DNA of 64,000 nt from positions 62,001 through 126,000 of the forward strand of contig NZ_JAVFVS010000005.1 of the NCBI RefSeq assembly GCF_030929605.1. The letters run 5' to 3'. Below are positions 44,882 to 62,319 of the stretch, piece by piece (position 1 is the first letter of the stretch; every line of letters starts with the position of its first letter). The notes beneath the pieces are model-generated. The model did no database searches and was not told the DNA's origin. It saw nothing but the letters and a program-made list of their open reading frames with translations. The position numbers and the translations under genes are program-made. The stretch comes from Flavobacterium sp. LHD-80 (GTDB lineage: Bacteria > Bacteroidota > Bacteroidia > Flavobacteriales > Flavobacteriaceae).

Positions 44882-45318
44882 AGAAAAATAGTGTTAGAAT
44901 TATTATTTTAAAATTTAACCTATAAATCAATATTGCAGAAAAAATAAGAATGGATTTTCCTGCAAAAATAAGAATAGACTAAAATTAGAAAAAAAAGTTT
45001 TAAAACACTAATAATAAACAACATAACCGATTAAAAGTAATAATTACTGTTGTTGTCATTTTATTGATTAAATTTTACAAAAACACTTTCTAAGACGTTT
45101 ATAAGCTGTTTTTGATGCTTTTATCTGTTTTTTAAAGTATTAAAAACAAGCATTTTAAATGTAAAATACTACAATTTTACGCTGAAAACAAAAAAAACTT
45201 TAACATTTTTTTTACGCAAAACTAAAAATCAAATACTTGACAATCAATTAATTAAGCACTTAAAACTCATTTACAAAAGACCTTAATGAAGACTTTTTCA
45301 AAAAAAATCCTGTAAATT
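44882..45318. other. AT-rich gap without a recognised gene
   Basis: It holds the promoter of the minus-strand narK, with two direct repeats TGCAGAAAAAATAAGAATGG and TGCAAAAATAAGAATAG about 28 bp apart near 44934-44980, and then very AT-rich sequence with poly-A/T tracts leading to the sulfatase leader promoter. No other feature is seen. Confidence 0.5.
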
Positions 45319-45349
45319 TTTGGTTTTTATTATATTAAAATTAACTTTG
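45319..45349 (+). promoter_or_regulatory. Canonical Bacteroidota promoter of leader 1
   Basis: -33 box TTTG (45319-45322), exactly 19 bp, -7 box TAACTTTG (45342-45349), a full match to TTTG-N19-TAnnTTTG. The transcript should start near CTATAGGATTAGTAGAG, a sequence repeated after the second leader promoter at 61937. Confidence 0.85.
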
Positions 45350-45402
45350 TCTATAGGATTAGTAGAGTTTAGATTTTTATTGAAAACCAAAAAAACTATA
45401 TT

Positions 45403-45489
45403 TTGAAAACAACCGAGAGCACATCGTATTTAAATCTTCCAAAAATATATACTTATAACAATTGTTGTTATATGTGCTTCTGTTGCTAA
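45403..45489 (+). CDS. Cys-rich leader peptide 1 (28 codons, TTG start)
   Basis: From TTG (45403) to TAA (45487) the frame encodes 28 residues starting LKTTESTSYL (initiator Met expected) and ending YNNCCYMCFCC-stop. Five of the last eight residues are Cys, and the final codons are TGT TGC. The second leader, 16.6 kb away, encodes a peptide of exactly the same length, ending YNTFCYMCSCC-stop, with about 15 of 28 identities without gaps. Conservation of frame, length and Cys positions is good evidence for translation. It lies about 45 bp after the predicted transcript start of the SusC/SusD/sulfatase operon. Likely role: ribosome stalling at Cys codons when charged Cys-tRNA is scarce, controlling operon readthrough. 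TTG start and function are inference. Confidence 0.65.
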   Translation: MKTTESTSYLNLPKIYTYNNCCYMCFCC

Positions 45490-45676
45490 TTCACAATGCA
45501 AGACATTCGTAATTTGATCCATTTCTGTAAATCAAAAACGATATTCAAATTCACCCACAAAATTATCTTTATTGAAAATACAAATATCTGGCTGATGCAT
45601 ATTTTGCATTGCGATGATTTTTTGAATATACCACTATTTTAAAAAGAAAATAATTAACAACTAAAACAAAACTAAA

Positions 45677-45712
45677 ATGAAAAATATGCAAAGCTGTTGT
45701 TGCTGTAAATAA
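45677..45712 (+). CDS. Polycysteine leader ORF, MKNMQSCCCCK
   Basis: An 11-codon ORF from ATG (45677), with four consecutive Cys codons (TGT TGT TGC TGT), then Lys and TAA. The stop codon lies 5 bp before a 10-bp-stem hairpin (45718-45743). A ribosome stalled on the Cys codons would sit next to the hairpin, the classical layout of an attenuator. An in-frame ATG at 45686 gives a shorter form. The equivalent region of leader 2 is degenerate and lacks the Cys run. Polycysteine ORFs acting as cysteine-responsive attenuators are known in mycobacteria; here it is inference. Confidence 0.65.
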   Translation: MKNMQSCCCCK

Positions 45713-45717
45713 AAAAA

Positions 45718-45743
45718 GCCATTTCTGCGGCAACAGAAATGGC
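45718..45743 (+). promoter_or_regulatory. Leader hairpin with CGGCAA loop
   Basis: Stem GCCATTTCTG (45718-45727), loop CGGCAA, complement 45734-45743. Leader 2 has TTTCTG-CGGCAA-CGGAAA at 62239-62256, keeping the loop and replacing a U-A pair by U-G. An alternative pairing AAGCC (45716-45720) with GGCTT (45746-45750) would compete. TTAAAGAACATTTATCACT follows in both leaders. There is no T run directly after, so it is not a standard terminator; it could block translation or bind a ligand. Confidence 0.6.
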
Positions 45744-45844
45744 GAGGCTTAAAGAACATTTATCACTAAATCAAGGAAACAATTAGAGGGTTGAAAATTC
45801 AACGCTCAGGGCGCCTTGTTAATTACTTAAACCATTACAAAGAA

Positions 45845-48800
45845 ATGAAAAAAAATTTAAAGATATACTCAATATTATTTCTCTTGCTGCTGACGGCAGG
45901 ACTTAATGCCCAGAATACAACCCCACTTATCCAATCTAAACTTGACGGAACTGTAGTGGATGACATTACAAATCAGCCAATTATTGGTGCTTCAGTAACC
46001 ATTAAAGGAACAACTCACGGTGTTATAACAGATGCTGAAGGAAAATTTTATTTTCAAACCGGTCAGAAATTCCCTTACACTTTAATTGTAAGTTATATAG
46101 GCTACAAAAAACTCGAAATTGTAGTTGATAAAAACCCTGTAACGATTCACTTAAAAGAAGAGCGTCAGGAATTAGATGAACTGGTAGTTGTTGGGTACGG
46201 ATCTCAAAAGAGAAAAGACATTACAGGTTCAGTCGCTTCAGTTCCAAAAGCAAATTTATCTCAAGTAACTTCATCTGCAGATAACTTGCTTCGAGGTGCA
46301 GTTCCTGGTGTGGTAGTTACACAAAGTTCAGGACGTCCAGGAGCTTCGTCAAGCGTACGTATTAGAGGAGGAAATTCTATTACAGCTGGAAATGAACCAC
46401 TTTACGTTTTAGATGGCGTTTTAATTTACAATGATAATAATAATGGTACGGCAGGTGTTGCTTACGCTGGAGCAACGGTGAATGTCCTTTCGACAATTAA
46501 TCCTGCTGATATTGAATCTATTGAAGTTTTGAAAGATGCGTCAGCAACTGCAATTTATGGATCTAGAGGAGCAAATGGAGTTGTTATTATTACAACAAAA
46601 AAAGGAACAAAAGGACAAGATAATATTTCGTACCAAGGCTACTTTGGATTTCAAAATGTTTCAAAAAAACTTCATTTAATGGATGCGAGTCAATGGGCAA
46701 GTTTGCGTAACGATGTTCAAGCAAGCATTGGGCAAGCACCTTCTTTTACTCCTGCTCAAATTGAAGCATTCAAAACTTCTGGAAGTTATGATTGGCAAGA
46801 TGCCGTTTTTAGAACTGCAGCGCCAATACAAAATCATCAATTGACTTTTTCTGGTGGAGACGATCGTTCAAGATACACTGTTTCTGCAGGTTATTTTGAT
46901 CAGGACGGAATTGTAATTGCAACCGATTTTAAACGTATTTCGCTTCGTGCTAATTATGAAAGAAATTATTCTCAGAATTTTAAATTTGGCGTAAATGCTA
47001 ATTACACAAATTCGGATGCAAACGGAGTTGGAACAAATGGCGGTGCGGCTGCCGGAAGACAGCCAAATCCATTAGTAGTTGCTTTATATCAACCACCAGT
47101 TGTACCAATCAAAAATCCTGACGGAAGTTACAATTTAACTAACAATCCTTACGCTACAGCTGTAAATGGTATCATTGCTAATCCAATTAACGATTTGGAA
47201 AATACTACAAATGAAACCAAAATCAACAGAATTTTAACGAGTTTATTTGGTGAATATAAAATAACAAAACAGCTTACAGCGAAAGTAGCGGTGAGCGGTG
47301 ATGTAATTGATACAAAACAAAATTATTATGCCCCAGCAACTACTACAACTGGAGCGGGAGTTAAAGGTTTAGCGTCTGTTGGTACGCGCAGAGTAAGTTC
47401 AGTTTTAAATGAAAACACAGTAAATTACAATACTAATTTTGGCGACGATCATAAATTCTCAGCTTTAGGAGGTTATACACTTCAATACACAAAAGGCGAG
47501 GTTGTAAATGCAGGAGCGCAGACTTTTGTAAATGATGCCAATACTTATAACGCATTGCAAGATGGTGTTCCAGTAAAACCTTATAGTGATGCATTCGAAA
47601 GTGTTTTAAAATCTTGGTTGGCGAGAGTAAACTATTCTTATAAAGGAAAATACAACTTTACGCTTTCGGGCCGTGCGGATGGTTCTTCAAGATTTGGATC
47701 AGAATCACTTTGGGGTTATTTCCCATCAGCTGGATTTTCTTGGAACATTACTGATGAAGAATTTGCAAACAATATCAAAGGTGTAACGGAAGCTAAACTT
47801 AGATTAACAGCTGGTACAACAGGAAACCAGGAAATTGGAAACTATCTTTCACTTGCTTCAATGGGTTCTGTTAATTATTCTTTTGGAGGTACAACTTATA
47901 CAGGTCTTGCTCCTACTCGACTAGCAAATCCAGATTTGAGATGGGAAAAAACAAATCAATATAACGTTGGTTTAGACTTATCATTATTGGACAGAAAAAT
48001 CAATTTTGTTTTTGATGTTTATTACAAAAAAACTAAGGATTTATTAATCAACGTTCCAGTGCCATTGACATCAGGATATGCAACTGTTCTTCAAAATATT
48101 GGAGGTGTTGAAAACAAAGGTCTTGAAATTGGTTTGACAACTGAAAACATAAAAACAGAAAATTTCTCATGGAATTCTAACATCGTTTTCTCAACTAACA
48201 AAAATAAAGTAACAGCGATAGGAAACGGTGTAGATCAGTTTTTTCCTGTTGTTCCAAACGGATCTTTATTACAACAACAGCCTGTAACTGTAAAAGTTGG
48301 ACTGCCTTTAGGAACTTTCTGGGGATACAGAACAAACGGAATTTTCCAAACGCAGGAAGAAGTAAATACACAACCTAAAATCAATAGTTTGGCAAACACA
48401 AAAGTGGGTGACAGAAGATATGTTGACACCAACGGAGATGGAGTAATTACTGCTCTTGACAAAGGAAACCTAGGTACTTCTCAACCAAAATTTGTTGGAA
48501 GTTTCGGTAATACCATTTCGTATCATGATTTTGATTTGAATTTCTCTTTCCAAGGAGCTTATGGCGGAAAAATCTTCAATGCTTTGAATCAGCAATTAGA
48601 AATTTCAACACTTGGAACAAATGCTAATGTGACGTTAGAAGATCGTTGGACACCAACAAATCCAAGCAATGAAATTCCGAGAGCTACAAGTTCTCCTTTA
48701 GGAATCGTATCAGAGCGTTATGTTGAAGATGCTTCTTTCTTGCGATTAAAATTGATTACGCTTGGTTATACATTGCCAAAAAGCACTTCTCATAAACTGG

Positions 48801-48976
48801 GTGTAAAAAGCGTGAAATTCTATGTTTCTGCAGAAAACTTAATTACATGGACAAAATACACTGGTTATGATCCAGAGGTAAGTTCATACGAACAAAACAA
48901 CTTATATCCGGGAATTGATTTTGGTTCTTATCCAAACTCTAAAACATTCATCTCGGGCTTGAACGTAACTTTCTAA
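45845..48976 (+). CDS. SusC/RagA-type TonB-dependent outer-membrane transporter
   Basis: About 1043 aa from the preferred ATG at 45845 (MKKNLKIYSILFLLLLTAGLNAQ, signal peptide). The in-frame ATG at 45791 adds 18 residues lacking signal character. Domain order: CarboxypepD_reg-like barrel-plug linker (about 30-105; GTVVDDITNQPIIGASVTIKGT), SusC signature DELVVVGYGSQKRKDITGSV near 117, plug domain with IRGGNSITAGNEPLYVLDGV and IESIEVLKDASATAIYGSRGANGVV, and a 22-strand barrel ending GLNVTF. It should import a large ligand together with the SusD protein encoded next. Given the sulfatases behind it, a sulfated glycan or other sulfate ester is the likely cargo. It is preceded by the Cys leader. 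Confidence 0.93.
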   Translation: MKKNLKIYSILFLLLLTAGLNAQNTTPLIQSKLDGTVVDDITNQPIIGASVTIKGTTHGVITDAEGKFYFQTGQKFPYTLIVSYIGYKKLEIVVDKNPVTIHLKEERQELDELVVVGYGSQKRKDITGSVASVPKANLSQVTSSADNLLRGAVPGVVVTQSSGRPGASSSVRIRGGNSITAGNEPLYVLDGVLIYNDNNNGTAGVAYAGATVNVLSTINPADIESIEVLKDASATAIYGSRGANGVVIITTKKGTKGQDNISYQGYFGFQNVSKKLHLMDASQWASLRNDVQASIGQAPSFTPAQIEAFKTSGSYDWQDAVFRTAAPIQNHQLTFSGGDDRSRYTVSAGYFDQDGIVIATDFKRISLRANYERNYSQNFKFGVNANYTNSDANGVGTNGGAAAGRQPNPLVVALYQPPVVPIKNPDGSYNLTNNPYATAVNGIIANPINDLENTTNETKINRILTSLFGEYKITKQLTAKVAVSGDVIDTKQNYYAPATTTTGAGVKGLASVGTRRVSSVLNENTVNYNTNFGDDHKFSALGGYTLQYTKGEVVNAGAQTFVNDANTYNALQDGVPVKPYSDAFESVLKSWLARVNYSYKGKYNFTLSGRADGSSRFGSESLWGYFPSAGFSWNITDEEFANNIKGVTEAKLRLTAGTTGNQEIGNYLSLASMGSVNYSFGGTTYTGLAPTRLANPDLRWEKTNQYNVGLDLSLLDRKINFVFDVYYKKTKDLLINVPVPLTSGYATVLQNIGGVENKGLEIGLTTENIKTENFSWNSNIVFSTNKNKVTAIGNGVDQFFPVVPNGSLLQQQPVTVKVGLPLGTFWGYRTNGIFQTQEEVNTQPKINSLANTKVGDRRYVDTNGDGVITALDKGNLGTSQPKFVGSFGNTISYHDFDLNFSFQGAYGGKIFNALNQQLEISTLGTNANVTLEDRWTPTNPSNEIPRATSSPLGIVSERYVEDASFLRLKLITLGYTLPKSTSHKLGVKSVKFYVSAENLITWTKYTGYDPEVSSYEQNNLYPGIDFGSYPNSKTFISGLNVTF

Positions 48977-48991
48977 GAAAAAAAAAATAAA

Positions 48992-50464
48992 ATGAAAAAG
49001 ATTATTATAACATTCCTATTAAGTGCCGGTTTATTTGTATCGTGCACAGATTTAGAGGTAACACCAACCTCTTTTGTAACCGAAGACAATTACTTCAAAA
49101 CCCAAGATGATGCAATCGCAAGTGTAACAGCAGTTTATGCTTCGTTAAGTTTAGATCCGGGAGAACAAAGTTTATTTGGAAGAAATTTATACTTCTTGAC
49201 TGATATTGCTACTGATTATGCAGCAGCCGGAGTTTCGGCAACAAATCCGCAGGTTAGAGCTTTGAGCAGTTTAACACATGATGCGACTTCAGACCGTGTT
49301 CAGGTGGCGTGGAGACAAATTTATGCGGGAATCAACAGAGCAAACGTAGCGATTGACAATGTTCCTAAAGTTGCCGGAACAGAAGCAGTAAAAAGCAGAT
49401 TGATTTTAGAAGCTAAATTCATTAGAGGATTATTGTATTTTCAAGCAGTTCGTCTTTGGGGAGGTGTGCCAATTGTCTTGCACGAACCAACTTCTATTCA
49501 GTTAGAAAGCTTAAAATCAAAAAGAGCAACAGTTGACGAAGTTTACGCACAAATTATTTCAGATTTAAAAGATGCTGAAGGTCTGCCTAAAACGTATCCT
49601 GCAGCCGATGCAGGTCGCGCAACTTCTGGAGCAGCAAAAGCAATTTTGGCAAAAGTTTATCTAACAAGAAAAGACTGGCCGAATGCAATTACAAAAGCTA
49701 AAGAAGTGATTAACGGTGGTTACGGTTATGCTTTGTTCGAAACTTTTCAAGATATTTTTACCAAAACAAAAAAGAATGGAAAAGAACATATTTTCTCAGT
49801 ACAATTTGAGCCAAATCAAGCAGGAAACGGGTCAAGCGGAAGTACTTTTCAAGCAACATCATTTACTGGATTTACTGCCACTGAGCCTGCAGATATCATT
49901 TCAGATGTAGCGTTGTTTTATGACATTTATGCTACCGGAGATGTGAGAAGAGATGTAAGTTATGGCAAGCAATTGCTTAATCCTGCAACAGGAACTTTGT
50001 ACACTTTTCCGAAACCTATCTTTAAGAAATATCTGGACGTGAGCAATCTGGCGACTCCTGCCAATGTTGCCATCAACTTTCCGGTTATTCGTTATGCCGA
50101 CATTTTATTGTCTTTGGCGGAAGCCATAAATGAACAAGGCGGACCAACTGCCGAAGCATATGAATTAATCAACCAAGTACGCAGAAGAGCTTTTGCAAAA
50201 CCAATTACAACGCCAGATGCAACAGTAGATTTAGTTGGATTAACACAAGTAACTTTTAGAGCTGCCATTCAGGAAGAACGTAAAAAAGAATTTGTTCAGG
50301 AAGGACAAAGATGGTTTGACCTTGTTCGTTGGGGAACTTTGGTTACTGAAGTGAAAAAAGTAACGGCTAAAAACTCTGTTTCAGAAAGAAATAATCTGTA
50401 TCCAATTCCACAAAGTGAAAGAAACATCGATCCTGTAGGTTTACCGCAGAATCCTGGATATTAA
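48992..50464 (+). CDS. SusD/RagB-family surface lipoprotein
   Basis: A 490-aa lipoprotein (MKKIIITFLLSAGLFVSCTD, lipidated Cys about 18). SusD features: TSFVTEDNYFKTQDDAIASVTAVYASL near residue 27, TPR-like helices around KSRLILEAKFIRGLLYFQAVRLWGGVPI and C-terminal FRAAIQEERKKEFVQEGQRWFDLVRWGTL near 425, ending SERNIDPVGLPQNPGY. It caps the SusC channel and binds the substrate. 15 bp after susC, 28 bp before the sulfatase gene. Confidence 0.93.
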   Translation: MKKIIITFLLSAGLFVSCTDLEVTPTSFVTEDNYFKTQDDAIASVTAVYASLSLDPGEQSLFGRNLYFLTDIATDYAAAGVSATNPQVRALSSLTHDATSDRVQVAWRQIYAGINRANVAIDNVPKVAGTEAVKSRLILEAKFIRGLLYFQAVRLWGGVPIVLHEPTSIQLESLKSKRATVDEVYAQIISDLKDAEGLPKTYPAADAGRATSGAAKAILAKVYLTRKDWPNAITKAKEVINGGYGYALFETFQDIFTKTKKNGKEHIFSVQFEPNQAGNGSSGSTFQATSFTGFTATEPADIISDVALFYDIYATGDVRRDVSYGKQLLNPATGTLYTFPKPIFKKYLDVSNLATPANVAINFPVIRYADILLSLAEAINEQGGPTAEAYELINQVRRRAFAKPITTPDATVDLVGLTQVTFRAAIQEERKKEFVQEGQRWFDLVRWGTLVTEVKKVTAKNSVSERNNLYPIPQSERNIDPVGLPQNPGY

Positions 50465-50492: not shown

Positions 50493-52402
50493 ATGAAAGA
50501 ATATCAAAATAGCATATCAATCAAAAGTCCTAAAAAAGGGCTTTTGATTACTGCAATTTTACTTACACAATTTGGTTTTTCACAAACTAAACCAGACGAA
50601 TTTAAAGGCGTAATTGGCAAAACCTTAGCCGATTCAAAAGAATATTGGCCAGAACCCGTTACAGCTCCAAAAGGCGTTCCAAATGTGGTTTGGATTATCT
50701 TAGATGACGTAGGTTATGGGGCTTCAAGCGCTTTTGGAGGTTTAATCCAAACTCCGGTTTTAGAGAGTCTTGCTAACAACGGACTGCGTTATACCAATTT
50801 TCATACAACAGCTATTTGTGCTCCTACCCGCTCCGCTTTGTTAACGGGAAGCAATTCTCATAAAGTTCATGTTGGCGGATTCTCGCATACCATAATGTCG
50901 GCGGGATTTCCAGGTTGGGACGGAAGATTGCCTTCAAAAAACGGAACTGTTGCGGAGATTTTACGTGACAAAGGATATAATACTTTTGGCGTTGGTAAAT
51001 ATGGAATTACTCCAGATGAAGAAGCTACAGACGCTGGACCATTCGACCGCTGGCCAACTGGAAAAGGATTTGAACATTTCTTCGGATTCTTAGGCTCAGC
51101 AACCGATCAATATAAACCCGATTTAATTGAAGATCAAGCGCACGTTGCTCCTGACGGACGCCACCTGAGCGAACAAATTACAGATAAAGCAATCAGTTAT
51201 ATTGCGCGACAGCAAAAAGCCGCTCCGGGAAAACCATTCTTTTTATACTATTCTCCGGCCGCTGTTCATGCACCTCATCAGGTTGCTCAAAAATGGAGCG
51301 ATCCGTATAAAGGAAAATTTGACGATGGATGGGACGCTTACCGCGAAAAAACAATTGAAAATCAGAAGAAATTAGGTGTTATTCCTTCAAATGCTGTTTT
51401 GCCAGAACGTAATCCACTTATTGCAGATTGGAAAAAATTAACGCCAGATCAAAAGAAAGTGTATGCCAAATTTATGGAAGTATATGCTGGATATTTAACA
51501 TATACTGATTACGAAATTGGAAGATTGGTTAATTATTTAAAAGAAATCAATCAGTTGGAAAATACGGTTGTTTTTGTTTTGATTGGAGACAATGGAGCCA
51601 GCAAAGAAGGAACTTTACAAGGCGCTGTGAACAGACAAACGTATGTTGTTGGCGAAACAGACGAGAAAGTTTTCCAAAATAATTTAAACCGAATTGGAGA
51701 AATTGGAACACCTCAAACGTATACCAATTACCCTTTAGGTTGGGCACAAGCAACAAATGTTCCTTTTAAAGATTGGAAACAAGACGCAAACTCAGAAGGC
51801 GGTACTGCGGTACTCATAATCCGTTGATTGTTTATTATCCAAAAGGAATTAAAACGCCTGGAATTAGAACCCAATACAGTCACGTAATCGATATTTTGCC
51901 AACAACGCTTGACATTTTAGGTGTTAAAGCGCCTGAATCGATCAGAGAAATTAAGCAAGATACCATTCAAGGATATTCTTTCTATAATTCTTTGAATGAT
52001 GCAAAAGCCATTTCAAATCATAAAATACAGCATTATTACATTTTTGGAGCCAGAGCTATTTACAGCGATGGCTGGAAAGCGGCAGCTGCACATCATCCAA
52101 ATTCAATTGAAGCTAAAGAAGCTTTGAGTGATCCCAAAAAAGCAGGTTTATTAAAAGCTGATTTTGACAAAGATGTTTGGGAATTGTACAACATCAACGA
52201 AGATTTTAACGAACAAAAAGATTTGGCTAAAAAATATCCTGAAAAGCTGGCCGAATTAAAAAAACTATTTGACGAGCAAGCCAAGAAAAACAACTTGTAT
52301 CCTTTAATAGACTGGTCTGATGTTTATCAAAGAAAAATACATCAAACACCAGGAACAGAAGGAAAATCTGCTCAAGAACTATTGACCAAAGCAAACAAGT
52401 AA
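50493..52402 (+). pseudogene. Arylsulfatase gene interrupted by an 8-bp tandem duplication
   Basis: Two overlapping frames (50493-51827 and the downstream frame from about 51815 to 52402) together match the intact paralogue at 52415 along its length. The first ends EGGTAVLIIR-stop, where the paralogue reads EGGTHNPLIV. The cause is visible: GCGGTACT occurs twice in tandem at 51799-51814. Removing one copy restores EGGTHNPL and a protein of about 634 aa. A signal peptide (about 1-30), metal residues VWIILDDVGYG, and the formylglycine motif CAPTRSALLTG (Cys about 109) are intact. It could be a genuine pseudogene, a slippage-reversible switch or an assembly error. Confidence 0.85.
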
Positions 52403-52414
52403 AAAATAAAAACT

Positions 52415-54346
52415 ATGAAAAATTTTAAATACAACAGTTTAATCAAAAGTCCTAAAAAAGGGCTTTTGATTACAGCGCTCCTAGTTGCACAATTAGGAAC
52501 AGCACAAGATAAACCAGAAGAATTTAAAGGTGTTATCGGGAAAACTTTAGCCGATTCTAAAGAATATTGGCCAGAGCCAGTAAAAGCTCCTAAAGGTGCT
52601 CCAAACGTTATTTGGATTTTATTAGATGACGTAGGATTTGGAGCTTCAAGTGCATTTGGAGGTCTGATCAGTACACCAACTTTTGATCAATTAGCAAATA
52701 ATGGTTTACGTTATACTAACTTTCATACAACGGCAATTTGTGCGCCAACTCGTGCTGCTTTATTGACTGGAAGAAATTCTGGAAGAGTGCACGTTAGTGG
52801 CTTTTCACACACTATTTTATCTGCTGGTTTCCCTGGTTGGGACGGAAGAATTCCTTCTGATAAAGGAACAATTGCGGAGATTTTACGTGAAAACGGATAC
52901 AACACTTTTGCTGTTGGAAAATATGGTGTAACGCCAGATGAAGATGCTACAGATGCTGGTCCATTTGACAGATGGCCAACTGGAAAAGGTTTTGATCATT
53001 TCTACGGATTCTTAGGTTCTCAAACTGATCAATACAATCCTGATTTAGTTGAAGATCAAGTTCACGTTACGCCAGACGGACGTCACTTGAGCGAATTGAT
53101 TACAGACAAAGCAATCAGTTATATTCAAAAACAGCAAAAAGCAGCACCAGGAAAACCATTTTTCTTGTATTATGCACCGGGCGCAGCACACGCACCTCAT
53201 CAAGTTGCCACAAAATGGAGCGATCCTTACAGAGGAAAATTTGATAAAGGCTGGGATGCTTACCGCGAAGAAGTAATTGCAAACCAAAAGAAATTAGGTG
53301 TAATTCCGGCTAATGCAGTACTACCAGAACGCAATCCTTTAATTACAGATTGGAAAAAATTATCTCCAGATCAGAAAAAAGTATATGCTAGATTCATGGA
53401 AGTTTATGCAGGATTCTTGACTTATACTGATTATGAAGTGGGAAGAGTTGTAAATTATTTGAAAGAAAGCGGACAGCTTGACAACACTGTAATTTTCGTA
53501 GCAATTGGCGATAACGGAGCAAGTAAAGAAGGAACTACAGAAGGAACAATCAACCAAAGTTTATTTGCTCAAGGCGTAACTGACGAACAAAATTTAAAGA
53601 CCAACTTAGCGAATATCGACGAAATTGGAACTGCAAAAGGTCTAAATACAAACTACCCTTTAGGATGGGCTCAGGCAACAAACGTTCCTTTCAAAAACTG
53701 GAAACAAGATGCGCAGTCTGAAGGAGGAACTCATAATCCGCTGATTGTTTTTTATCCTAACGGAATTAAAGACAAAGGTGGCATCAGAAATCAATACAGT
53801 CACGTAACCGATTTGCTTCCAACAACTTTAGATATTGTAGGTGTTAAAGCGCCGGAATATATCAAAGGTATCAAACAAGATATTATTCAGGGTTCGTCTT
53901 TATATGCTTCTTTAGATAACGCAAAAGCCGAATCATTACACAAAGTTCAGTACTACTACATCTTTGGAAACAGAGCGATTTACAAAGATGGATGGAAAGC
54001 TGGCGCGGCGCATGCGAATCCGTTTACTGCAGCAAAAACTGTCGGTACTCAGGCGCCTGCACCAAGTAATTTTGATACTGATGTTTGGGAATTATACAAC
54101 TTGAACGAAGATTTTAACGAGCGAAACAATCTAGCAGCAAAGTATCCTGAAAAATTAGCCGAGCTTAAAAAACTGTTCGACGAGCAAGCGAAAGAAAACA
54201 ACGTTTATCCGTTGATTGACTGGCAAGATGTAATCACAAGAAAAATACATAATACTGGTCCAGACAAAGGCAAAAGTCTTCAGGATTTAATTAAACAAGT
54301 TACTAAACCAGGAGAAGGTACAACTACTGCTGGAGGTAGCCATTAA
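52415..54346 (+). CDS. Secreted arylsulfatase (family S1)
   Basis: A 643-aa sulfatase with a signal peptide (LLITALLVAQLGTAQ, to about residue 29). VIWILLDDVGFGASSAFGG provides the metal Asp pair; the formylglycine motif is CAPTRAALLTG with Cys about 109 (C-x-P-x-R), so activity needs a maturase encoded elsewhere. VGDNGASKEGTTEG-like (AIGDNGASKEG) near 366 provides further metal ligands. It hydrolyses sulfate esters, probably in the periplasm. It is a tandem paralogue of the frameshifted gene upstream (about 75 percent by eye), 12 bp after it. A CCTGCAAGG palindrome (54363-54390) follows as likely terminator. Confidence 0.92.
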   Translation: MKNFKYNSLIKSPKKGLLITALLVAQLGTAQDKPEEFKGVIGKTLADSKEYWPEPVKAPKGAPNVIWILLDDVGFGASSAFGGLISTPTFDQLANNGLRYTNFHTTAICAPTRAALLTGRNSGRVHVSGFSHTILSAGFPGWDGRIPSDKGTIAEILRENGYNTFAVGKYGVTPDEDATDAGPFDRWPTGKGFDHFYGFLGSQTDQYNPDLVEDQVHVTPDGRHLSELITDKAISYIQKQQKAAPGKPFFLYYAPGAAHAPHQVATKWSDPYRGKFDKGWDAYREEVIANQKKLGVIPANAVLPERNPLITDWKKLSPDQKKVYARFMEVYAGFLTYTDYEVGRVVNYLKESGQLDNTVIFVAIGDNGASKEGTTEGTINQSLFAQGVTDEQNLKTNLANIDEIGTAKGLNTNYPLGWAQATNVPFKNWKQDAQSEGGTHNPLIVFYPNGIKDKGGIRNQYSHVTDLLPTTLDIVGVKAPEYIKGIKQDIIQGSSLYASLDNAKAESLHKVQYYYIFGNRAIYKDGWKAGAAHANPFTAAKTVGTQAPAPSNFDTDVWELYNLNEDFNERNNLAAKYPEKLAELKKLFDEQAKENNVYPLIDWQDVITRKIHNTGPDKGKSLQDLIKQVTKPGEGTTTAGGSH

Positions 54347-54390: not shown

Positions 54391-54565
54391 TTTCATTATA
54401 AGAAATAGAAATACATTTTGATTTAGAATTCACTAAAATCACAATAAATAACAAAAAAAGAACATTTTAAACACTACTAATTCTATAGAATTAAAAGTTT
54501 TTAATTTAAATTTACACTTTATAACTTTTTGATTTTCAACAACACGCAATATAAAATAAGAAATC

Positions 54566-55765: not shown

Positions 55766-57718
55766 ATGAAGAAAAATAAAATAAGTGCTTTACTAATTGG
55801 ATTTACATTTGTTGCAAACGCACAAGCTCCAAAACAGGCAACCACTTTTACCCAAAAATCAAATGAGGCAGTATATTCAAAATTAAATTTTGACGATACT
55901 GCCGATTTTACTGATGCAAAAAAAGGTTTTATCGCCACTTTACCTGACGGAAAAATTCTGTCAAAAAACGGAAATGTAGCCGTAAATCTAACCGATTTTG
56001 ATTTCATAAAAGGAAAAGCGCCGGCAACGGTAAATCCGGCTTTATGGCGTCAGGCGCAATTGAACAACATCAACGGATTATTCAAAATTACCGATGGCGT
56101 TTATCAGGTTCGTTCTTTCGACGCCGCCAATATTTCTTTCATAGAAACCAAAAATGGCTACGTTGTAATTGATGCTTTAACGATTGAAGAAGCTTCCGCG
56201 AAAGCGTATGAATTTGTCAAAAAACACGTTGCTGACAAACCTATTTTGGCCGTAATTGTGACGCACAGTCACGGCGATCATTATGGCGGATTGCAAGGTT
56301 TGGTTTCGGCCGAAGACATAAAATCCGGAAAAGTAAAATTCATTACGCCAAAAGGTTTTTATGAAGAAGCCGTAAGTGAAAATGTGCTTCTCGGAAATGT
56401 TATGCGAAGAAGAGCCGGATATCAATTCGGATTAAATTTAGAAAGAAATGCCACTGGACAAATTGATGTTGGTTTAGGAAAACCATTTCTTGGTGGAGGA
56501 AGTTCATCGCTTTTGCCTCCAAATTTCGAAATTGAAAAAACCGGACAAACCGTTACTATTGATGGTTTGGATTTAGTTTTTCAGCTTACGCCGAATTCTG
56601 AAGCACCAGCCGAATTAACGGTCTTTGCTCCTTCTAAAAAAGTTTTTTTCTCTGCCGAAATAGCAAGTCATACCTATCATAATGTTTTAACACCGCGTGG
56701 CGCAAAAACCAGAGATGCAAAAGCTTGGGCAGGATATCTGGACGAAGCGATCGATTTATTTGGAGCCAAAACGGAAATTATTGTTCCGTCGCACACTTGG
56801 CCGGTTTACGGACATGATAAAGGAATTACTTTCCTGGAAAAACAGAGAGATTTATACAAATATGTTCACGATCAAACGGTTCATTTGGCCAATAAAGGTT
56901 TGAACAAAGATGAAATCGCCGAAGAAATAAAACTTCCAACTGAACTAGCAAAAGAATGGTACAACCGAGATTTTTACGGAACAGTAAAATATAATGCAAA
57001 AGCAACGTACCAATTTTATCTTGGCTGGTGGGACGGAAATCCTGCCGATTACGATAAACTGCCTCAAGTGGAGTCGGCTAAAAAATATGTGGAGTGGTTT
57101 GGTGGTGAAGAAACAGCTTTGAAAAAAGCCAATGAAAGCTTCCAAAAAGGTGAATACCGTTGGGTCGCTGAAGTTCTAAAACATGTGATTTTTGCCAATC
57201 CTGATAATGTTCAAGCAAAGAATTTACAAGCCGATGCTTTTGAGCAAATTGCGTATCAAAGCGAATCAGGAATTTGGAGAGATTTATATTTATCTGGCGC
57301 CAAAGAACTTCGCGAAGGCACAACTGTTCCAAAAAATCCTGTCAATCGCGCTGCCGGATTTTTAGCCAATTTAACTCCAGAAGCAATTTTCGATTATTTA
57401 TCGGTTACAGTTGACGGAAATAAAGCAGCCGGAAAAGAAATTTCTTTGCGTTTCGTTTTTCCTGAACTAAACAAAAACATTCTGGTTTATCTTAAAAATG
57501 GCGTTTTGCATCAAAGCCAAACCCGTGTAGATGATAAAGCTCAGTTTACTTTAGCAATTTCAAAAGCCAAATTTGTAGAATTATTGACCAATCCAGAAAG
57601 TGCCAGAACAATTCTAACTTCTGAAGGTGTAATTTTCGAAGGCGATCCGTTTAAATTTAGAGAATTGGCGAGTGTTTTTGAACCTGCAAATCCATATTGG
57701 AATATTGTAACTCCTTAA
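55766..57718 (+). CDS. Secreted alkylsulfatase (metallo-beta-lactamase fold, SdsA1-like)
   Basis: A 650-aa protein with a signal peptide (MKKNKISALLIGFTFVANAQ). The zinc-binding motif is THSHGDHYGG near residues 166-175, with further ligands in VPSHTWPVYGHDKG near 346. Between come the segment RRAGYQFGLNLERN and the C-terminal alkyl-sulfatase dimerisation and SCP2-like domains (YLGWWDGNPADYDKLP near 418; VFPELNKNILVYLKNGVL near 568). This is the linear primary-alkylsulfatase family (SdsA1), which splits alkyl sulfates such as dodecyl sulfate to alcohol and sulfate. It does not need formylglycine. Co-directional with hydroxylase and rhodanese-thioredoxin genes, 10-15 bp apart. Confidence 0.92.
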   Translation: MKKNKISALLIGFTFVANAQAPKQATTFTQKSNEAVYSKLNFDDTADFTDAKKGFIATLPDGKILSKNGNVAVNLTDFDFIKGKAPATVNPALWRQAQLNNINGLFKITDGVYQVRSFDAANISFIETKNGYVVIDALTIEEASAKAYEFVKKHVADKPILAVIVTHSHGDHYGGLQGLVSAEDIKSGKVKFITPKGFYEEAVSENVLLGNVMRRRAGYQFGLNLERNATGQIDVGLGKPFLGGGSSSLLPPNFEIEKTGQTVTIDGLDLVFQLTPNSEAPAELTVFAPSKKVFFSAEIASHTYHNVLTPRGAKTRDAKAWAGYLDEAIDLFGAKTEIIVPSHTWPVYGHDKGITFLEKQRDLYKYVHDQTVHLANKGLNKDEIAEEIKLPTELAKEWYNRDFYGTVKYNAKATYQFYLGWWDGNPADYDKLPQVESAKKYVEWFGGEETALKKANESFQKGEYRWVAEVLKHVIFANPDNVQAKNLQADAFEQIAYQSESGIWRDLYLSGAKELREGTTVPKNPVNRAAGFLANLTPEAIFDYLSVTVDGNKAAGKEISLRFVFPELNKNILVYLKNGVLHQSQTRVDDKAQFTLAISKAKFVELLTNPESARTILTSEGVIFEGDPFKFRELASVFEPANPYWNIVTP

Positions 57719-57728
57719 ACTTAAAATC

Positions 57729-58445
57729 ATGAAAAATAAAATAGTTAAAAATAGCATTTCAGCATTTGTATTGCTTTTTACCATCGTTGGATTTTCACAA
57801 ACTAAAAGCTCGAATACTGTTTCTTTAGATGTTTATTACAGTAAAATTCAGGCAGAGAAAAATCCACAGATAATTGATGCCAGAGGTCCTGAAGAATTTG
57901 CTTTAAACCATCTTTTAGGTGCAGTAAATTTTAATTTAGAATCTAAAGATTACGCTCAAAAAATAGCAAAATTAGATAAATCAAAACCCGTTTTTACTTA
58001 TTCGATTGGAGCTGGAAGAAGTGTTTGGCTGGCAGACGATTTACTAAAAAAAGGTTTCAAAGAAGCCTACAGTCTGGAAGGCGGCATCGCGAACTGGATT
58101 GGAAGCGGAAAACCGTTTTTTGCCAATTCAAAAAGCAAATTAACTTTAGCAGAATACAACAAAATTATTTCTGACAATAAAACCGTTTTAGTTGATATTG
58201 GATCTGTTTATTGTGGTGCCTGCAAAAAAGTTAAACCAGTTCTGGAAACGATAAAAGCACAATACGGAAGTAATCTAAAAATAGTTGAAATCGATCTGGA
58301 AGACAACACACAAGTCATCGCTGATTTGAAAACAATAAAAGTCTTCCCAACTTTAATTCTTTATCAAAATGGAAAAATCATTCTTAAAAAAGAAGGTTTT
58401 GAAAATTTGAAAAATGAGGTTGATGTGGCTTTGGCTTCGAAATAG
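57729..58445 (+). CDS. Exported rhodanese-like/thioredoxin fusion
   Basis: A 238-aa protein with a signal peptide (SISAFVLLFTIVGFSQ, to about residue 24). Residues 28-130 are rhodanese-like (PQIIDARGPEEFALNHLLGAVNF...EAYSLEGGIANW), but the active-site loop reads FTYSIGAGRS, with Ser where rhodaneses have Cys, so sulfurtransfer is unlikely. Residues 135-238 are thioredoxin-like with C162-GA-C165 (YCGACKKVKP). The thioredoxin half could reduce periplasmic disulfides or handle thiol partners. 10 bp after the alkylsulfatase, hence likely one operon. Confidence 0.85.
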   Translation: MKNKIVKNSISAFVLLFTIVGFSQTKSSNTVSLDVYYSKIQAEKNPQIIDARGPEEFALNHLLGAVNFNLESKDYAQKIAKLDKSKPVFTYSIGAGRSVWLADDLLKKGFKEAYSLEGGIANWIGSGKPFFANSKSKLTLAEYNKIISDNKTVLVDIGSVYCGACKKVKPVLETIKAQYGSNLKIVEIDLEDNTQVIADLKTIKVFPTLILYQNGKIILKKEGFENLKNEVDVALASK

Positions 58446-58481
58446 CTTTTTGATTTTTATTAGACTTAGACAACCACAAAA

Positions 58482-58583
58482 TTGTCATTTCGACGGAGGA
58501 GAAATCTTCGCAAGAAGCTCTACAAAGATTGGATATTCGTTGCGGACTTACTCGTGAAGATTTCTCCTCCGTCGAAATGACAA
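58482..58583. repeat. Dispersed palindromic element, GTCATTTCGACGGAGG copy
   Basis: A 102-bp inverted repeat with GACGGAGGAG on the left and CTCCTCCGTC on the right (paired change relative to copy 1). Loop ACAAAGATTGG in reverse orientation. 3' end of the 54.5-58.4 kb operon. Confidence 0.9.
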
Positions 58584-58638
58584 ACTTTACGCTCAATACT
58601 GAGCCAAAAACCATAAACTACAAACCAAAAACCAAAAT

Positions 58639-60258
58639 ATGGCAACCTATAAAAAAATAACCAAGATTGTTATACCCATTTTAATCATACTCTTTTTATT
58701 AGCAGTATTCCTTTTCTGGCCTATAAACACAGACGGAACTTTAATAAAACCAGATGAAAAACTACTCGAAGGAAAAACAGCATTTCTTTCACAAAAAGAT
58801 ACTGCGAAAACATCTCAAAAGAAACCAAACATCATCATTCTCCTTGCTGATGATTTAGGAAAATATGATATTTCATTATACGGAGGAAAGGCTGCACCAA
58901 CTCCTCAAATTGATTCTTTGGCAGCTTCCGGAGTTACTTTTACCGATGGTTATGTATCGGCTTCGATTTGTTCGCCGTCGCGTGCTGGATTGCTTACAGG
59001 ACGTTATCAAGAACGCTTTGGGCATGAATATCAGCCGGGCGATCGTTATCCAAAAAATAACTTGGAATATTACGCTTTCAAATATTTAATCAACACTAAT
59101 AGCTGGAGGCTCAATGACAAAATAAATTATCCAAATGAAGCCTCTATAGCCACGCAAGGTTTGCCACAATCTGAAATTACTTTTGCTGATTTGGCTAAAA
59201 AACAAGGTTACAGCACGGCAATTATCGGGAAATGGCATTTGGGTCACAACAAAGGATTTTTTCCTTTAGACCGAGGTTTCGATTATCATTACGGATTTTA
59301 TCAGGCATTTTCACTTTATACTCCCGAAGATGATAATCCGGATATTATCAATCATCATCACAAAGATTTTACCGATAAAATGATTTGGGGAAATGGCCGT
59401 GTCGGAATTGGACAAATTCGCCGCGACACTACCATTATTCATGATAAAGCCTATTTAACCGAAACATTTGCTGATGAAGCTGAAGCTTTTATCGATAAAA
59501 ATAAAAACAAACCGTTTTTGCTTTATGTTCCGTTTAATGCGCCGCACACGCCGTTTCAAGTTCGTAAAAAATATTACGACCGTTTCCCGAATGTAAAAGA
59601 CGAAAACAAACGTGTGTATTATGCGATGATCAGCGCACTTGATGATGCAATTGGAAGAATTCGAGCTAAAGTCAAAAAAGAAGGTTTAGAGGAAAATACC
59701 TTAATCATTTTTGCCAGCGACAACGGTGGTGCCGATTATACTTTTGCAACCACAAATGCACCTTTAAAAGGCGGTAAATTTTCGCATTTTGAAGGTGGCA
59801 TAAATGTTCCGTTTGCACTTTCTTGGAAGGGAAAAATAAAACCGCATACTGTTTATAAAACTCCTGTAAGTTCTCTTGATATTTTTAGCACAATTGCTTC
59901 TGTTACGGGTTCTGGTTTGCCAAAAGACCGCGTGTATGATGGCGTTGATTTGATCGATGTGGTAAACAATAATAAAGATGCGCATAAAGATTTGTATTGG
60001 CGTTCTGGCGATGCAAAAGCAATAAGAAGCGGTAACTGGAAATTAATTGTAAGTGGAAAAACACACGAAACCTGGCTTTATGATTTGGCAAAAGACAAAT
60101 CGGAAACAACAGATTTAGCCTCAAAAAATCCAGAAAAAGTAAAAGAACTGCAAACTGCTTTACAAAATTGGGAAAAAGGTTTAATCAAACCGCTTTGGCC
60201 TAATTTGACTTATTATGAGTTCGATTTTGGAAAGCAAAAATACTTTGTGGATTTGTAA
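58639..60258 (+). CDS. Sulfatase (family S1), membrane-anchored
   Basis: A 539-aa sulfatase with an N-terminal hydrophobic anchor or uncleaved signal (IVIPILIILFLLAVFLFWPI, about 10-29). NIIILLADDLGKYDISLYGG is the metal-binding start, CSPSRAGLLTGRYQ is the formylglycine motif (Cys about 111), GKWHLGHNKGFFPLDRGFD near 200 and IFASDNGGADYTF near 357 are conserved. The C-terminus GNWKLIVSG...TWLYDLAKDKSETTDLA is typical. Substrate unknown, likely a sulfated carbohydrate. It lies after a palindromic element (58482) and before the YeiH gene, with the 60272 repeat between. Confidence 0.92.
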   Translation: MATYKKITKIVIPILIILFLLAVFLFWPINTDGTLIKPDEKLLEGKTAFLSQKDTAKTSQKKPNIIILLADDLGKYDISLYGGKAAPTPQIDSLAASGVTFTDGYVSASICSPSRAGLLTGRYQERFGHEYQPGDRYPKNNLEYYAFKYLINTNSWRLNDKINYPNEASIATQGLPQSEITFADLAKKQGYSTAIIGKWHLGHNKGFFPLDRGFDYHYGFYQAFSLYTPEDDNPDIINHHHKDFTDKMIWGNGRVGIGQIRRDTTIIHDKAYLTETFADEAEAFIDKNKNKPFLLYVPFNAPHTPFQVRKKYYDRFPNVKDENKRVYYAMISALDDAIGRIRAKVKKEGLEENTLIIFASDNGGADYTFATTNAPLKGGKFSHFEGGINVPFALSWKGKIKPHTVYKTPVSSLDIFSTIASVTGSGLPKDRVYDGVDLIDVVNNNKDAHKDLYWRSGDAKAIRSGNWKLIVSGKTHETWLYDLAKDKSETTDLASKNPEKVKELQTALQNWEKGLIKPLWPNLTYYEFDFGKQKYFVDL

Positions 60259-60271
60259 TCTTGATCGAAGT

Positions 60272-60354
60272 CCTGCAAGGTTTTCAAAACCTTGTAGGTC
60301 TCGTTTCTACCTTTTTAAATATTAATACCTACAAGGTTTTGAAAACCTTGCAGG
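60272..60354. repeat. Perfect 28-bp inverted repeat, CCTGCAAGGTTTT
   Basis: Arms 60272-60299 and 60327-60354 are exact complements; each arm is itself nearly palindromic (GCAAGGTTTT-CAAAACCTTGT). A single unit occurs at 54363-54390. It lies just 14 bp before the preferred yeiH start and is a likely terminator or mRNA-structure element. Confidence 0.9.
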
Positions 60355-60368
60355 AAATCAAAAAACAA

Positions 60369-61631
60369 ATGTCAACTCAAACTAAACAATTTAATATTCA
60401 CGAAGATTGGACGGTAGTAATTTTAGGGTTCATAATCATCGGAATTTCCCTTTTTATATTTCTTCCCGAAGTTCCAATTTTCAGTTGGTCAAACAGCACC
60501 AATTTAAAAACGAAAGTATTTGATTTTGCAAACTTAAAAATACTTCTCATCCAATTTTTATATCTGATTTTAATCGGAACTTTAGGCGCTTTTTTAATTG
60601 GAAAATCGGTTAAATATTTTTTGCTGACTTTCCCTATATTGTATATTTTAACTTTGATTGCTTTACTTCTGGCGGGAAATTCGGCTATAAAATCTATCAA
60701 TTTAGAAGCGGTAATTTTCAGTTTGATAATTGGTTTAGCAATTGGGAATTTCTTCAAACTTCCTGAATGGTTTCATTCAGCACTTTCAACAGAAGTTTTC
60801 GTCAAAATCGGATTGGTTTTATTGGGAACCAGCGTGATTTTCTCTGATATTTTAAAGGCGGGTTCATTAGGCTTAATTCAGGCTTTGGTTGTTGTTTTGT
60901 CTGTCTGGTATTTTGCCTTTTGGCTTTGCCGAAAATTAAAAGTTGACGATGAATTAACGATGATGATTTCGAGTGCCGTATCTATCTGTGGTGTTTCTGC
61001 TGCGATTGCAACTTCGGGCGCTATAAAAGGCGATTCAAAAAAACTGTCTTATGTAATCTCCATCGTTTTGGTCACTGCCATTCCAATGATGATTTTCATG
61101 CCGATAATTGCCAAATATTTCAACTTTCCCGAAGAAGTCACTGGCGCATGGTTAGGCGGTAGTATTGACACTTCGGGAGCAGTTGTGGCTTCAGGAAGTT
61201 TGGTTGGTGAAACAGCTTTGAAAATCAGTACAATCGTAAAGTTTTCGCAAAATGTTTTATTAGGATTAGCTGCTTTTGCCATTTCTGTGTATTGGACTTA
61301 CACGCACAACAAATCGGCGGAAGCTGTAGAATCAAAACCGACTTTAAGTGTGATTTGGGAACGTTTTCCAAAGTTTGTAATTGGCTTTATTCTGGCTTCT
61401 CTCCTATTTTCTTTTTTCATTACTTCAGAAGTTCGAGATTCGGTAAAAGACAGTTTGAAAAATTTGCAAGGGATTTGGTTTGCTTTGGCTTTTACAAGTA
61501 TTGGTTTAGAAACTAATTTTAAAGATTTGCTTGCTAATAATAGTCGTAAACCTTTGTATGCTTTTTTAATTGCACAATTATTCAATGTGATTGTTACGTT
61601 GATTATTGCTTTTTTGTTGTTTGGAAGATGA
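60369..61631 (+). CDS. YeiH-family putative sulfate exporter
   Basis: About 420 aa from ATG at 60369 (MSTQTKQFNIHEDW). The open frame begins at 60261, but its first 36 residues are the translation of the inverted repeat 60272-60354, so the later start is preferred. About ten TM helices; family motifs FFKLPEWFHSALSTEVFVKIGLVLLGTSVIFSDI, SAVSICGVSAAIATSGAIKG and WLGGSIDTSGAVVASG. PF03601 proteins are called putative sulfate exporters; the substrate is not firmly known. In a locus of sulfatases, export of excess sulfate or sulfite is plausible. Confidence 0.87.
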   Translation: MSTQTKQFNIHEDWTVVILGFIIIGISLFIFLPEVPIFSWSNSTNLKTKVFDFANLKILLIQFLYLILIGTLGAFLIGKSVKYFLLTFPILYILTLIALLLAGNSAIKSINLEAVIFSLIIGLAIGNFFKLPEWFHSALSTEVFVKIGLVLLGTSVIFSDILKAGSLGLIQALVVVLSVWYFAFWLCRKLKVDDELTMMISSAVSICGVSAAIATSGAIKGDSKKLSYVISIVLVTAIPMMIFMPIIAKYFNFPEEVTGAWLGGSIDTSGAVVASGSLVGETALKISTIVKFSQNVLLGLAAFAISVYWTYTHNKSAEAVESKPTLSVIWERFPKFVIGFILASLLFSFFITSEVRDSVKDSLKNLQGIWFALAFTSIGLETNFKDLLANNSRKPLYAFLIAQLFNVIVTLIIAFLLFGR

Positions 61632-61708: not shown

Positions 61709-61812
61709 TTTGTCATTTCGACGAAGGAGAAATCTCCACAAGTAGCTCCGTAACGAGAATCCAATCTTTGTCGAGCTACTTGCGGAGATTTCTCGTGCCT
61801 CGAAATGACAAA
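61709..61812. repeat. Dispersed palindromic element, arm-mismatched copy
   Basis: A 104-bp element. The left arm is of copy 1 type (GACGAAGGAGAAATCTCC), while the right arm has CTCGTGCCTCGAAATGAC, so the centre of the stem is mispaired. The loop CCAATCTTTGTCGAGC is kept. Before it, 61634-61680 is an AACCGCTAAGTTCGCAAGG-type repeat. Confidence 0.85.
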
Positions 61813-61936
61813 ACTATAAATATTTTCTTTTTCATAAACAAAAAATTCAAAAAGCTAAAAATCAACTAATTACAACTTTAAATTATTCCTAATACCTTCT
61901 ACTTCACTTCTTTTTTCAAAAAAAAATCAAGATTAA

Positions 61937-61967
61937 TTTGGTTTTTACAATATTAAATATAACTTTG
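61937..61967 (+). promoter_or_regulatory. Canonical promoter of leader 2
   Basis: TTTG (61937-61940), exactly 19 bp, TAACTTTG (61960-61967). Followed by TCTATAGAATTAGTAGAGTT, as in leader 1. Upstream, CTTTTTTCAAAAAAAAATC is also shared by both. Confidence 0.85.
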
Positions 61968-62007
61968 TCTATAGAATTAGTAGAGTTTAATATTTAAAAC
62001 TTACATT

Positions 62008-62094
62008 TTGAAAACAATAGCACACAGAACGTCTTTCATTCTTCCTAAAAATTATGCCTATAACACTTTTTGTTATATGTGTAGCTGTTGTTAA
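62008..62094 (+). CDS. Cys-rich leader peptide 2 (28 codons, TTG start)
   Basis: TTG at 62008 to TAA at 62092, 28 codons starting LKTIAHRTSF and ending YNTFCYMCSCC-stop. It aligns without gaps with the leader peptide at 45403; LKT, LPK, Y-x-YN and CYMC-x-CC are identical. It precedes the sulfatase at 62320 by 225 bp. Between lie a degenerate second ORF (62181-62267, MQFASNEDAQQCYIIK, one Cys) reading through the hairpin, and the conserved CGGCAA hairpin. Predicted cysteine-sensing leader; the TTG start is inferred from conservation. Confidence 0.65.
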   Translation: MKTIAHRTSFILPKNYAYNTFCYMCSCC

Positions 62095-62238
62095 TTCTCA
62101 AATTTGTTTGTCATGATTTTGCTTCATTTAAAATCGGAACAAACCCCACTTTTTTACCCCAATTTCATTTACAATATAATATGCAATTCGCCTCAAACGA
62201 AGATGCACAACAATGTTATATAATCAAGAATAAAGGAA

Positions 62239-62256
62239 TTTCTGCGGCAACGGAAA
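62239..62256 (+). promoter_or_regulatory. Leader 2 hairpin, CGGCAA loop
   Basis: TTTCTG-CGGCAA-CGGAAA, with a G-U pair where leader 1 has A-U, followed 8 bp later by TTAAAGAACATTTATCACT, shared with leader 1. Shorter stem than in leader 1. Confidence 0.55.
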
Positions 62257-62319
62257 CCATCAATTAAAGAACATTTATCACTTACAAAACAAAAAACAAC
62301 AAACAAAAAGCATTTTAAA

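Follow-up and report, generated by a model that had tools for sequence, protein, structure and literature searches.

Leaders that carry cysteine codons are known from other bacteria, and the comparisons made here follow the accessible portions of the papers cited. In the cys operons of actinobacteria, leaders with runs of cysteine codons occur without obvious terminators and an involvement of Rho has been proposed (Seliverstov 2005, PMC1262725), while the polycysteine short ORFs of mycobacteria are described in a title as leaderless and cysteine-responsive (Canestrari 2020, cited in PMC13236596). The uORFC-8-2 attenuator precedes cysS in Rhodobacterales and ends in an intrinsic terminator (PMC8632094). 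Work on Flavobacterium psychrophilum has reported clues that amino acid operons are preceded by leader-peptide attenuators (PMC9723704). A further upstream frame, CruR (DUF2946) of Bordetella, is a copper sensor of more than 140 residues that carries CXXC and RAPP motifs (PMC9426467). Among the open-access papers listed by our literature searches, none concerned a cysteine leader in Bacteroidetes. Here such leaders are described before SusC/SusD, sulfatase and cysE genes of Flavobacterium.

The window (the whole stretch of 64,000 nucleotides analysed) was found to contain two frames of this kind. Leader 1 (45403..45489, plus strand) has 28 codons with a TTG start and encodes LKTTESTSYLNLPKIYTYNNCCYMCFCC followed by a stop, and its paralogue (62008..62094, plus strand), also TTG-started and of 28 codons, encodes LKTIAHRTSFILPKNYAYNTFCYMCSCC and a stop. 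The two peptides are identical at 15 of 28 residues and end as CCYMCFCC-stop and FCYMCSCC-stop, respectively (common form CYMCxCC-stop), just as the earlier note had described them. The canonical promoter which it had placed ahead of the leader was also recovered, as a box TAACTTTG (TAnnTTTG; 45342..45349, plus strand) which we take to be a Bacteroidetes-type -7 promoter box, with a possible -33 element TTG at 45320-45322 (plus strand). At both leaders this box abuts a palindrome, CTATAGRATTAGTAG, followed by AGTTTA. The palindrome of leader 1, CTATAGGATTAGTAG, is located at 45351..45365, 37 nt from the frame start, and that of the second leader at 61969..61983, 24 nt from the start. The upstream promoter and palindrome are thus nearly identical between the two leaders, contrary to the earlier statement that the flanking non-coding DNA diverges. 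From sequence comparison we infer that the 28-codon frame is probably a translated regulatory leader, which would provide cysteine-responsive, ribosome-mediated control of sulfur scavenging in Flavobacterium.

Like the actinobacterial and mycobacterial leaders, so far as the accessible text describes these, the leaders in the window have a cysteine run near the stop of a short ORF, cysteine or sulfur genes on the 3' side and no obvious intrinsic terminator. Unlike the mycobacterial ORFs as described there, they do not appear to be leaderless, as the TTG or GTG start lies 40-53 nt past the -7 box (53 nt past the end of the predicted TAACTTTG box for leader 1), and they show a conserved 28-mer, a hairpin over the cysteine codons and a second leader before SusC. 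The actinobacterial and mycobacterial systems belong to another phylum, and homology with the Flavobacterium leaders is not claimed. With uORFC-8-2, as presented in the accessible text (PMC8632094), the leaders share tandem cysteine codons within the first stem and a cysteine-related gene downstream; however, no terminator was found for the SusC and sulfatase leaders, whereas a sulfhydrylase leader described below has one. The F. psychrophilum attenuators are from the same genus and leader-peptide attenuation was likewise proposed for them, but the accessible part of the main text names no cysteine leader, sulfatase or SusC target (PMC9723704). CruR is similar in being a cysteine-containing frame upstream of a TonB-dependent transporter operon, and is reported in the accessible text to act through Rho (PMC9426467). 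Leader 1 differs from CruR and DUF2946 in having 28 residues and no RAPP motif, and its peptide gave no match to Pfam or NCBIfam models. Several features of trp/his-type attenuators are present, namely a short frame translated on comparative evidence, a run of cysteine codons and cysteine-supplying genes downstream. However, scans of 45300-45900 and 61900-62400 gave no intrinsic terminator on the plus strand after either leader, and the SusC and sulfatase leaders were therefore not classed with that type.

The conservation of leader 1 was assessed in two collections. In the first, the DNA pattern for CYMCxCC-stop was found 36 times, spread over 27 of 150 same-genus genomes, more than expected by chance as the reversed-pattern control gave no match in the same 150 genomes. 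Thirty one of the 36 places were read (30 loci and L003), and all 31 have CTAYnnnATTAGTAG, or a palindrome close to it, 100-117 nt 5' of the core motif. A search of the genome itself for CCC-stop returned 68 matches against 27 for its control and was too common for use. The second collection consists of 80 loci found via SusC homology alone, of which 79 were assessable (L144 is cut by a contig end); the strict palindrome pattern is located within 600 nt in 73 of the 80, and the titles of the 80 records listed with the closest SusC relatives are all Flavobacterium or Flavobacteriaceae. Frame-destroying changes in relatives, named in advance as evidence against the leader, were sought and none were found, the frame being open in all 79 assessable loci. 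It has 28 codons in 76 of these and 29 in the other three (L116, L124, and L135), where the extra codon is one for cysteine. A pattern run over all loci, which requires three cysteines near the end and includes the other leaders L006, L172, and L188, gave 110 records with TTG (79), GTG (29), or ATG (2) as start codon, 103 of them of 28 codons. Both ATG starts belong to other leaders (L006 and L172), so that the TTG start noted for the window leaders is TTG or GTG in their relatives; leader-1-like frames with an ATG start were seen before a second SusC type (L171 and L192).

Synonymous changes were counted on the SusC tree for 76 sequences (75 of the 80 SusC loci and the window), leaving out the three 29-codon loci L116, L124, and L135, L146 (start beyond the 600-nt limit) and the cut locus L144. 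In frame 0, 112 changes were seen compared with 73.4 ± 7.6 expected, a number reached in none of 400 randomisations. Frame 1 had 66 against 84.1 expected, and frame 2 a slight excess of 102 over 87.8, which 11 of 400 randomisations reached. The few stop codons present in reconstructed ancestors are an artefact of treating sites independently. Along the frame, the excess is located in codons 2-8 (27 seen, 14.4 expected) and 17-28 (55 seen, 32.4 expected), with codons 9-16 at the level of chance (30 seen, 26.2 ± 3.9 expected). This suggests that both ends are constrained as peptide and the middle hardly beyond the avoidance of stops. The synonymous bias for which the earlier note had proposed a test was accordingly seen at the two ends, but not in the middle part, which includes LPK. 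Taken together, the open frames and the frame-0 excess support leader 1 as a translated frame on comparative grounds.

Cysteine is absent from the first 19 residues in 71 of 73 distinct leader 1 peptides and the last 9 residues hold three to five cysteines in all 73, most of which were gathered with the three-cysteine pattern and seven added by hand. The same cysteine-rich ending is seen in the SusC-selected set, for which two cysteines anywhere were asked. Counting against cysteine sensing, Cys 22 is G or S in six of the 73 peptides and Cys 25 is S in one. Residues other than cysteine are also conserved, these being K2, T3, and M24 (72 of 73 each) and Y23 (62 of 73).

Within the coding sequence, hairpin P1 (45450..45476, plus strand) pairs codons 16-20 with codons 22-25, its 3' arm covering CYMC. 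In 27 hand-chosen leaders, 25 of them distinct, 96.8% of P1 cells are paired, compared with at most 62.8% when the partners are slid; five of ten pairs have changed on both sides and the covariation score was reached by none of 500 shuffles. In L140, L142, and L170, with a VFVNPGRVCCCC-type peptide, a hairpin is kept at this place with other bases. Within leader 1, codons 2-5 might in addition pair with codons 26-29; this was considered and is plausible only, since positions 7-84 and 12-79 are unpaired in 42 and 58% of 86 leaders; together with the inner part, 86% of cells are paired.

Met- and Cys-rich ends could bind copper. In an alternative reading, leader 1 is an arrest peptide along the lines of CruR, whose nascent 28-mer would itself respond to a ligand (cysteine, a thiol, or Cu(I) attached to CYMCxCC) by stalling or releasing the ribosome. 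The near-fixed length (28 codons in most records), the conserved K2, T3, M24, and Y23 and the synonymous excess at codons 2-8 are consistent with this, as is the position of CruR at the head of a TonB-transporter operon, according to the accessible text (PMC9426467). However, codons 22-25 are part of P1, so that RNA pairing accounts for some of the conservation, the middle of the leader is hardly constrained, the end is not RAPP-like and the downstream genes are for sulfur rather than copper. We therefore regard an arrest peptide as unlikely.

Between leader 1 and SusC, several further elements were identified, all on the plus strand. Hairpin H1 (45508..45540) is a predicted fold with CGT/ACG arms and a variable loop, and similar arms are seen by eye in relatives. 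Hairpin H2 (45581..45625) has the flanks CAAanATCT and GATTnTTGA and all six of its inner pairs show changes on both sides among 50 distinct sequences, which were picked by their match to the flank pattern, so that the conservation of the flanks is due to the choice of rows. Folding is more stable than in dinucleotide shuffles, the mean z over the 80 loci being -2.2 for P1, -1.8 for the interval from the leader 1 stop to leader 2 and -2.2 for H2. Leader 2 (45677..45712) encodes MKNMQSCCCCK and a stop, and a cysteine-containing counterpart is located about 149-170 nt 5' of SusC in all 80 SusC-selected loci. In the second SusC type these leaders are mostly MKKRMCC-like, and in the third (L025, L036, and L202) leader 2 has a single cysteine. 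Leader 2 is followed by hairpin H3, GCCATTTCTG-CGGCAA-CAGAAATGGC (45718..45743), and by a box, AAAGAACATTTATCACTA (45751..45768), and both recur before sulfatases, with an H3-like hairpin TTTCTGCGGCAACGGAAA at 62239..62256 (plus strand) and the box at 62266. In the form AAAGAACATTTATCACT, the box was noted after H3 ahead of the SusC and sulfatase genes, at 45751-45768 and 62266-62283. In the four sulfatase loci read (L003, L046, L049, and L050) H3 is kept and no Cys-rich leader 2 is present, which, like the single cysteine of the third SusC type, counts against the proposed cysteine control. In 20 chosen sequences, 94.5% of H3 cells are paired and both partners have changed at three of ten pairs; the H3 consensus was found at 90% or more in 79 distinct rows, 3' of leader 2. 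Directly 5' of SusC, the folds of clade alignments indicate hairpin H4 (45772..45818; CAAGG...CCTTG, inner GTTGAAAATTCAAC).

Two other readings of this interval were set aside. A pairing of the leader 2 cysteine codons with the H3 loop is possible, yet swapped partners and randomised cysteine codons do equally well: for the main SusC type (43 sequences) the energies are -11.5 kcal/mol for the own H3, -11.25 for a swapped H3 and -11.8 with randomised cysteine codons, and for the second type (six sequences) -8.65, -10.1, and -8.1, respectively. H3 and the downstream box are unlikely to encode a small protein, as the frame was broken between loci on reading.

The compensatory changes in P1, H2, and H3 would also be expected if the region were mainly a structured RNA, such as a riboswitch or a site for a protein, with an open frame that is incidental. 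This is very unlikely, given that the frame is open in 79 of 79 loci, its length varies only by a cysteine codon and synonymous changes are in excess in frame 0; furthermore, no Rfam family reached threshold for the leader region, the five matches at 45300-45900 all being far under their gathering scores. Elsewhere in the window, Rfam gave one match above threshold, Flavo-1 RNA (RF01705; 25622-25705, minus strand, 57.3 bits). Antisense RNA control has been proposed for Bacteroides polysaccharide loci, and on the minus strand alone H3, with T7 behind it, does score as a terminator, but that it ends an antisense RNA repressing SusC, with the cysteine leaders mattering less, is highly improbable, as the 80 loci have no conserved TAnnTTTG promoter on the opposite strand (best shared position in 11 of 80), the looser TnnnTTTG at -7 common to 79 of 80 is the complement of ACAAAGAA before the SusC start, and the U-run is weak in sulfatase loci.

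The palindrome at the promoter is a candidate operator. Together with its tail it is present in three copies in the window compared with 0.04 expected. The third copy (54474..54488, minus strand) lies within the gene cluster, between a sulfatase and a fatty-acid-hydroxylase-like gene; no cysteine leader was recognised there on reading, and it is possibly an internal promoter. Across the genome (4.96 Mb), the palindrome with up to two mismatches was found at 20 places and its reversed control at 17, so that the eight sites that have no more than one mismatch are the only ones to carry weight. A TAnnTTTG-type box directly adjoins the palindrome in 93 of the 101 distinct contexts from the collected loci. 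A cysteine leader follows in 79 of these 93, compared with 0.0003 per site in shuffles that keep letters only, although the fraction is not an unbiased estimate as the loci were partly gathered via the leader itself. By the same test, none of the eight contexts without a box has a cysteine leader. The 14 contexts with box and palindrome but without such a leader all precede the second SusC type (judged by its N-terminus), and have a short MKKRMCC leader 2 in 10 cases, a one-cysteine MKKRM frame in three and neither in L193.

Copies of the palindrome also occur beside Rrf2 genes. In L008 it separates a TonB receptor gene from an Rrf2-family gene (PF02082) that scores above the TIGR00738 cut-off but does not reach the cut-offs for IscR and CymR. 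The arrangement recurs in L172, L183, and L188, where the Rrf2 gene was recognised from its N-terminus. On this basis the palindrome is likely to be the operator of an Rrf2-family repressor. The TonB receptors of L172, L188, and L183 have a Met/Cys-cluster frame of their own, at 1574-1660 in L172 (ending GCMMCMC) and at about 1580-1690 in both L188 (IMCMCCL) and L183 (QMMCMS); the receptor of L008 has no such frame.

The plus-strand genes identified behind leader 1 begin with a SusC/RagA TonB-linked outer membrane protein (45845..48976; TIGR04056, E 1.9e-275) and a SusD-family lipoprotein (48992..50464; PF07980). They are followed by the N-terminal part of a sulfatase (50493..51827), the C-terminal part of which is in another frame at 51773-52402, a second sulfatase (52415..54346; PF00884), an alkyl sulfatase (55766..57718; PF14863, PF14864), a rhodanese-thioredoxin protein (57729..58445; PF00581, PF00085), a further sulfatase (58639..60258; PF00884) and a YeiH-like membrane protein (60261..61631; PF03601, with TIGR00698 below cut-off). 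The genes from SusC through the YeiH-like protein appear to form one operon. The split sulfatase (50493-52402) comprises 444 aa and then 209 aa with an SGSH C-terminal domain, whereas its F. resistens counterpart (L081) is one frame of 633 aa; the split is either true decay or an assembly error. Similar inverted repeats (TTGTCATTTCGACG...) at 58480-58590 and 61710-61810, downstream of genes, are probably a dispersed genomic repeat. The second leader precedes another sulfatase (62320..63975, plus strand), and a relative of cysE (serine acetyltransferase) follows 30 nt 3' of it, just beyond the window (G000 C5:126006-126824). In other species leader 1 was also found directly before cysE, in L044 (NF041874 154.2 against a cut-off of 150; TIGR01172 170.7, under 210.65) and, where the genes were judged by like N-termini, in L023, L029, L169, and L191. 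The sulfatases, SusC/SusD, alkyl sulfatase, and cysE identified downstream are consistent with a role in cysteine supply.

Related leaders were found before other sulfur genes. In the same genome (L006), a leader MKTIANNNMMMCCQVMQMCIPICCCQK with a 14-pair intrinsic terminator precedes an O-acetylhomoserine sulfhydrylase (TIGR01326), which suggests that the genus uses Met/Cys leaders of this kind. Of 150 same-genus genomes, 67 have a match to this stretch, although many of the matches are weak and of short length. In 29 of the best 30 loci, a Met/Cys-rich frame is followed by T5 51-62 nt past its stop, the one miss being L238, which was read as a wrong, longer frame, and the palindrome pattern is present in 19 of the 30. 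In another genus of Flavobacteriaceae (L285), a frame MNNTLIIENTNCCKVQTICCTCCWCPKVLCVM with eight cysteines (1297-1395) precedes a cysE relative, and after it comes a hairpin of very high stability (z -6.65) with a T-tract; this is a single case close behind another terminator. The terminator pattern scan of L285 did not list this hairpin, only one upstream, and in the fold the T-tract is inside the stem. Such Cys-rich frames are rare outside the genus (cysE, 3 of 29 loci, shuffled rate 0.031; sulfhydrylase, 1 of 28 loci, shuffled rate 0.021), in a scan with a 450-nt limit that may miss distant leaders and in which L291 is unread and L298 is probably on the wrong strand. The leader-1 profile matched 3 of 299 family genomes, namely its own, the same-genus G060 and G325, with the G325 hit falling, on reading, inside the long open frame of a different gene. 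The H3 model matched 4 of 249 genomes, with the two outside the genus resembling ordinary terminators. Among the genomes searched, leader 1 and H3 are convincingly present only in Flavobacterium.

In the mechanism proposed for the cysteine leader, transcription would start at the TAnnTTTG box, and an Rrf2-type repressor bound to the adjoining palindrome would be the first gate. When charged tRNA-Cys is scarce, the ribosome would stall on the cysteine codons, hairpin P1 could not form and the downstream RNA would be permissive; with ample cysteine, the ribosome would finish and leave, and expression would drop. Leader 2 (MKxMQxCCCK), about 165 nt upstream of SusC, would serve as a second check of the same kind. 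Candidate routes from the stall to higher expression are Rho, RNA folding at SusC and mRNA decay. A Rho site after leader 1 found no support, since the stretch from leader 1 to leader 2 has a C/G ratio of 1.72, which does not exceed the 1.79 of control sequence 560-700 nt upstream of SusC and thus gives no Rho-site signal. Of the earlier idea of a Cys-tRNA-sensing leader, the translated frame, the confinement of cysteine codons to its end and the fitting sulfur genes were upheld, but the output route was not found. The earlier note gave no such route, and it did not mention leader 2, the hairpins, the palindrome, the cysE relative beyond the window or the sulfhydrylase leader. It is possible, though we put it forward tentatively, that two cysteine leaders in series, for which no intrinsic terminator was found, gate SusC/SusD uptake, the nascent chain and hairpin of leader 1 acting jointly as the sensor and leader 2 repeating the check near SusC.

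The covarying RNA hairpins described here match no Rfam family above threshold. The leaders offer a test case for ribosome-mediated control in bacteria without Shine-Dalgarno sequences, as these are described in the accessible part of PMC6847099. If the two-leader arrangement is correct, a polysaccharide-type uptake locus would answer to charged tRNA and not to its substrate. The usual view of SusC/SusD loci is that the glycan acts as their switch. The SusC/SusD and sulfatase locus appears to be under cysteine control via one or two translated leaders and an Rrf2-type operator, so that Flavobacterium may devote some of its sulfatase capacity to sulfur nutrition rather than carbon.
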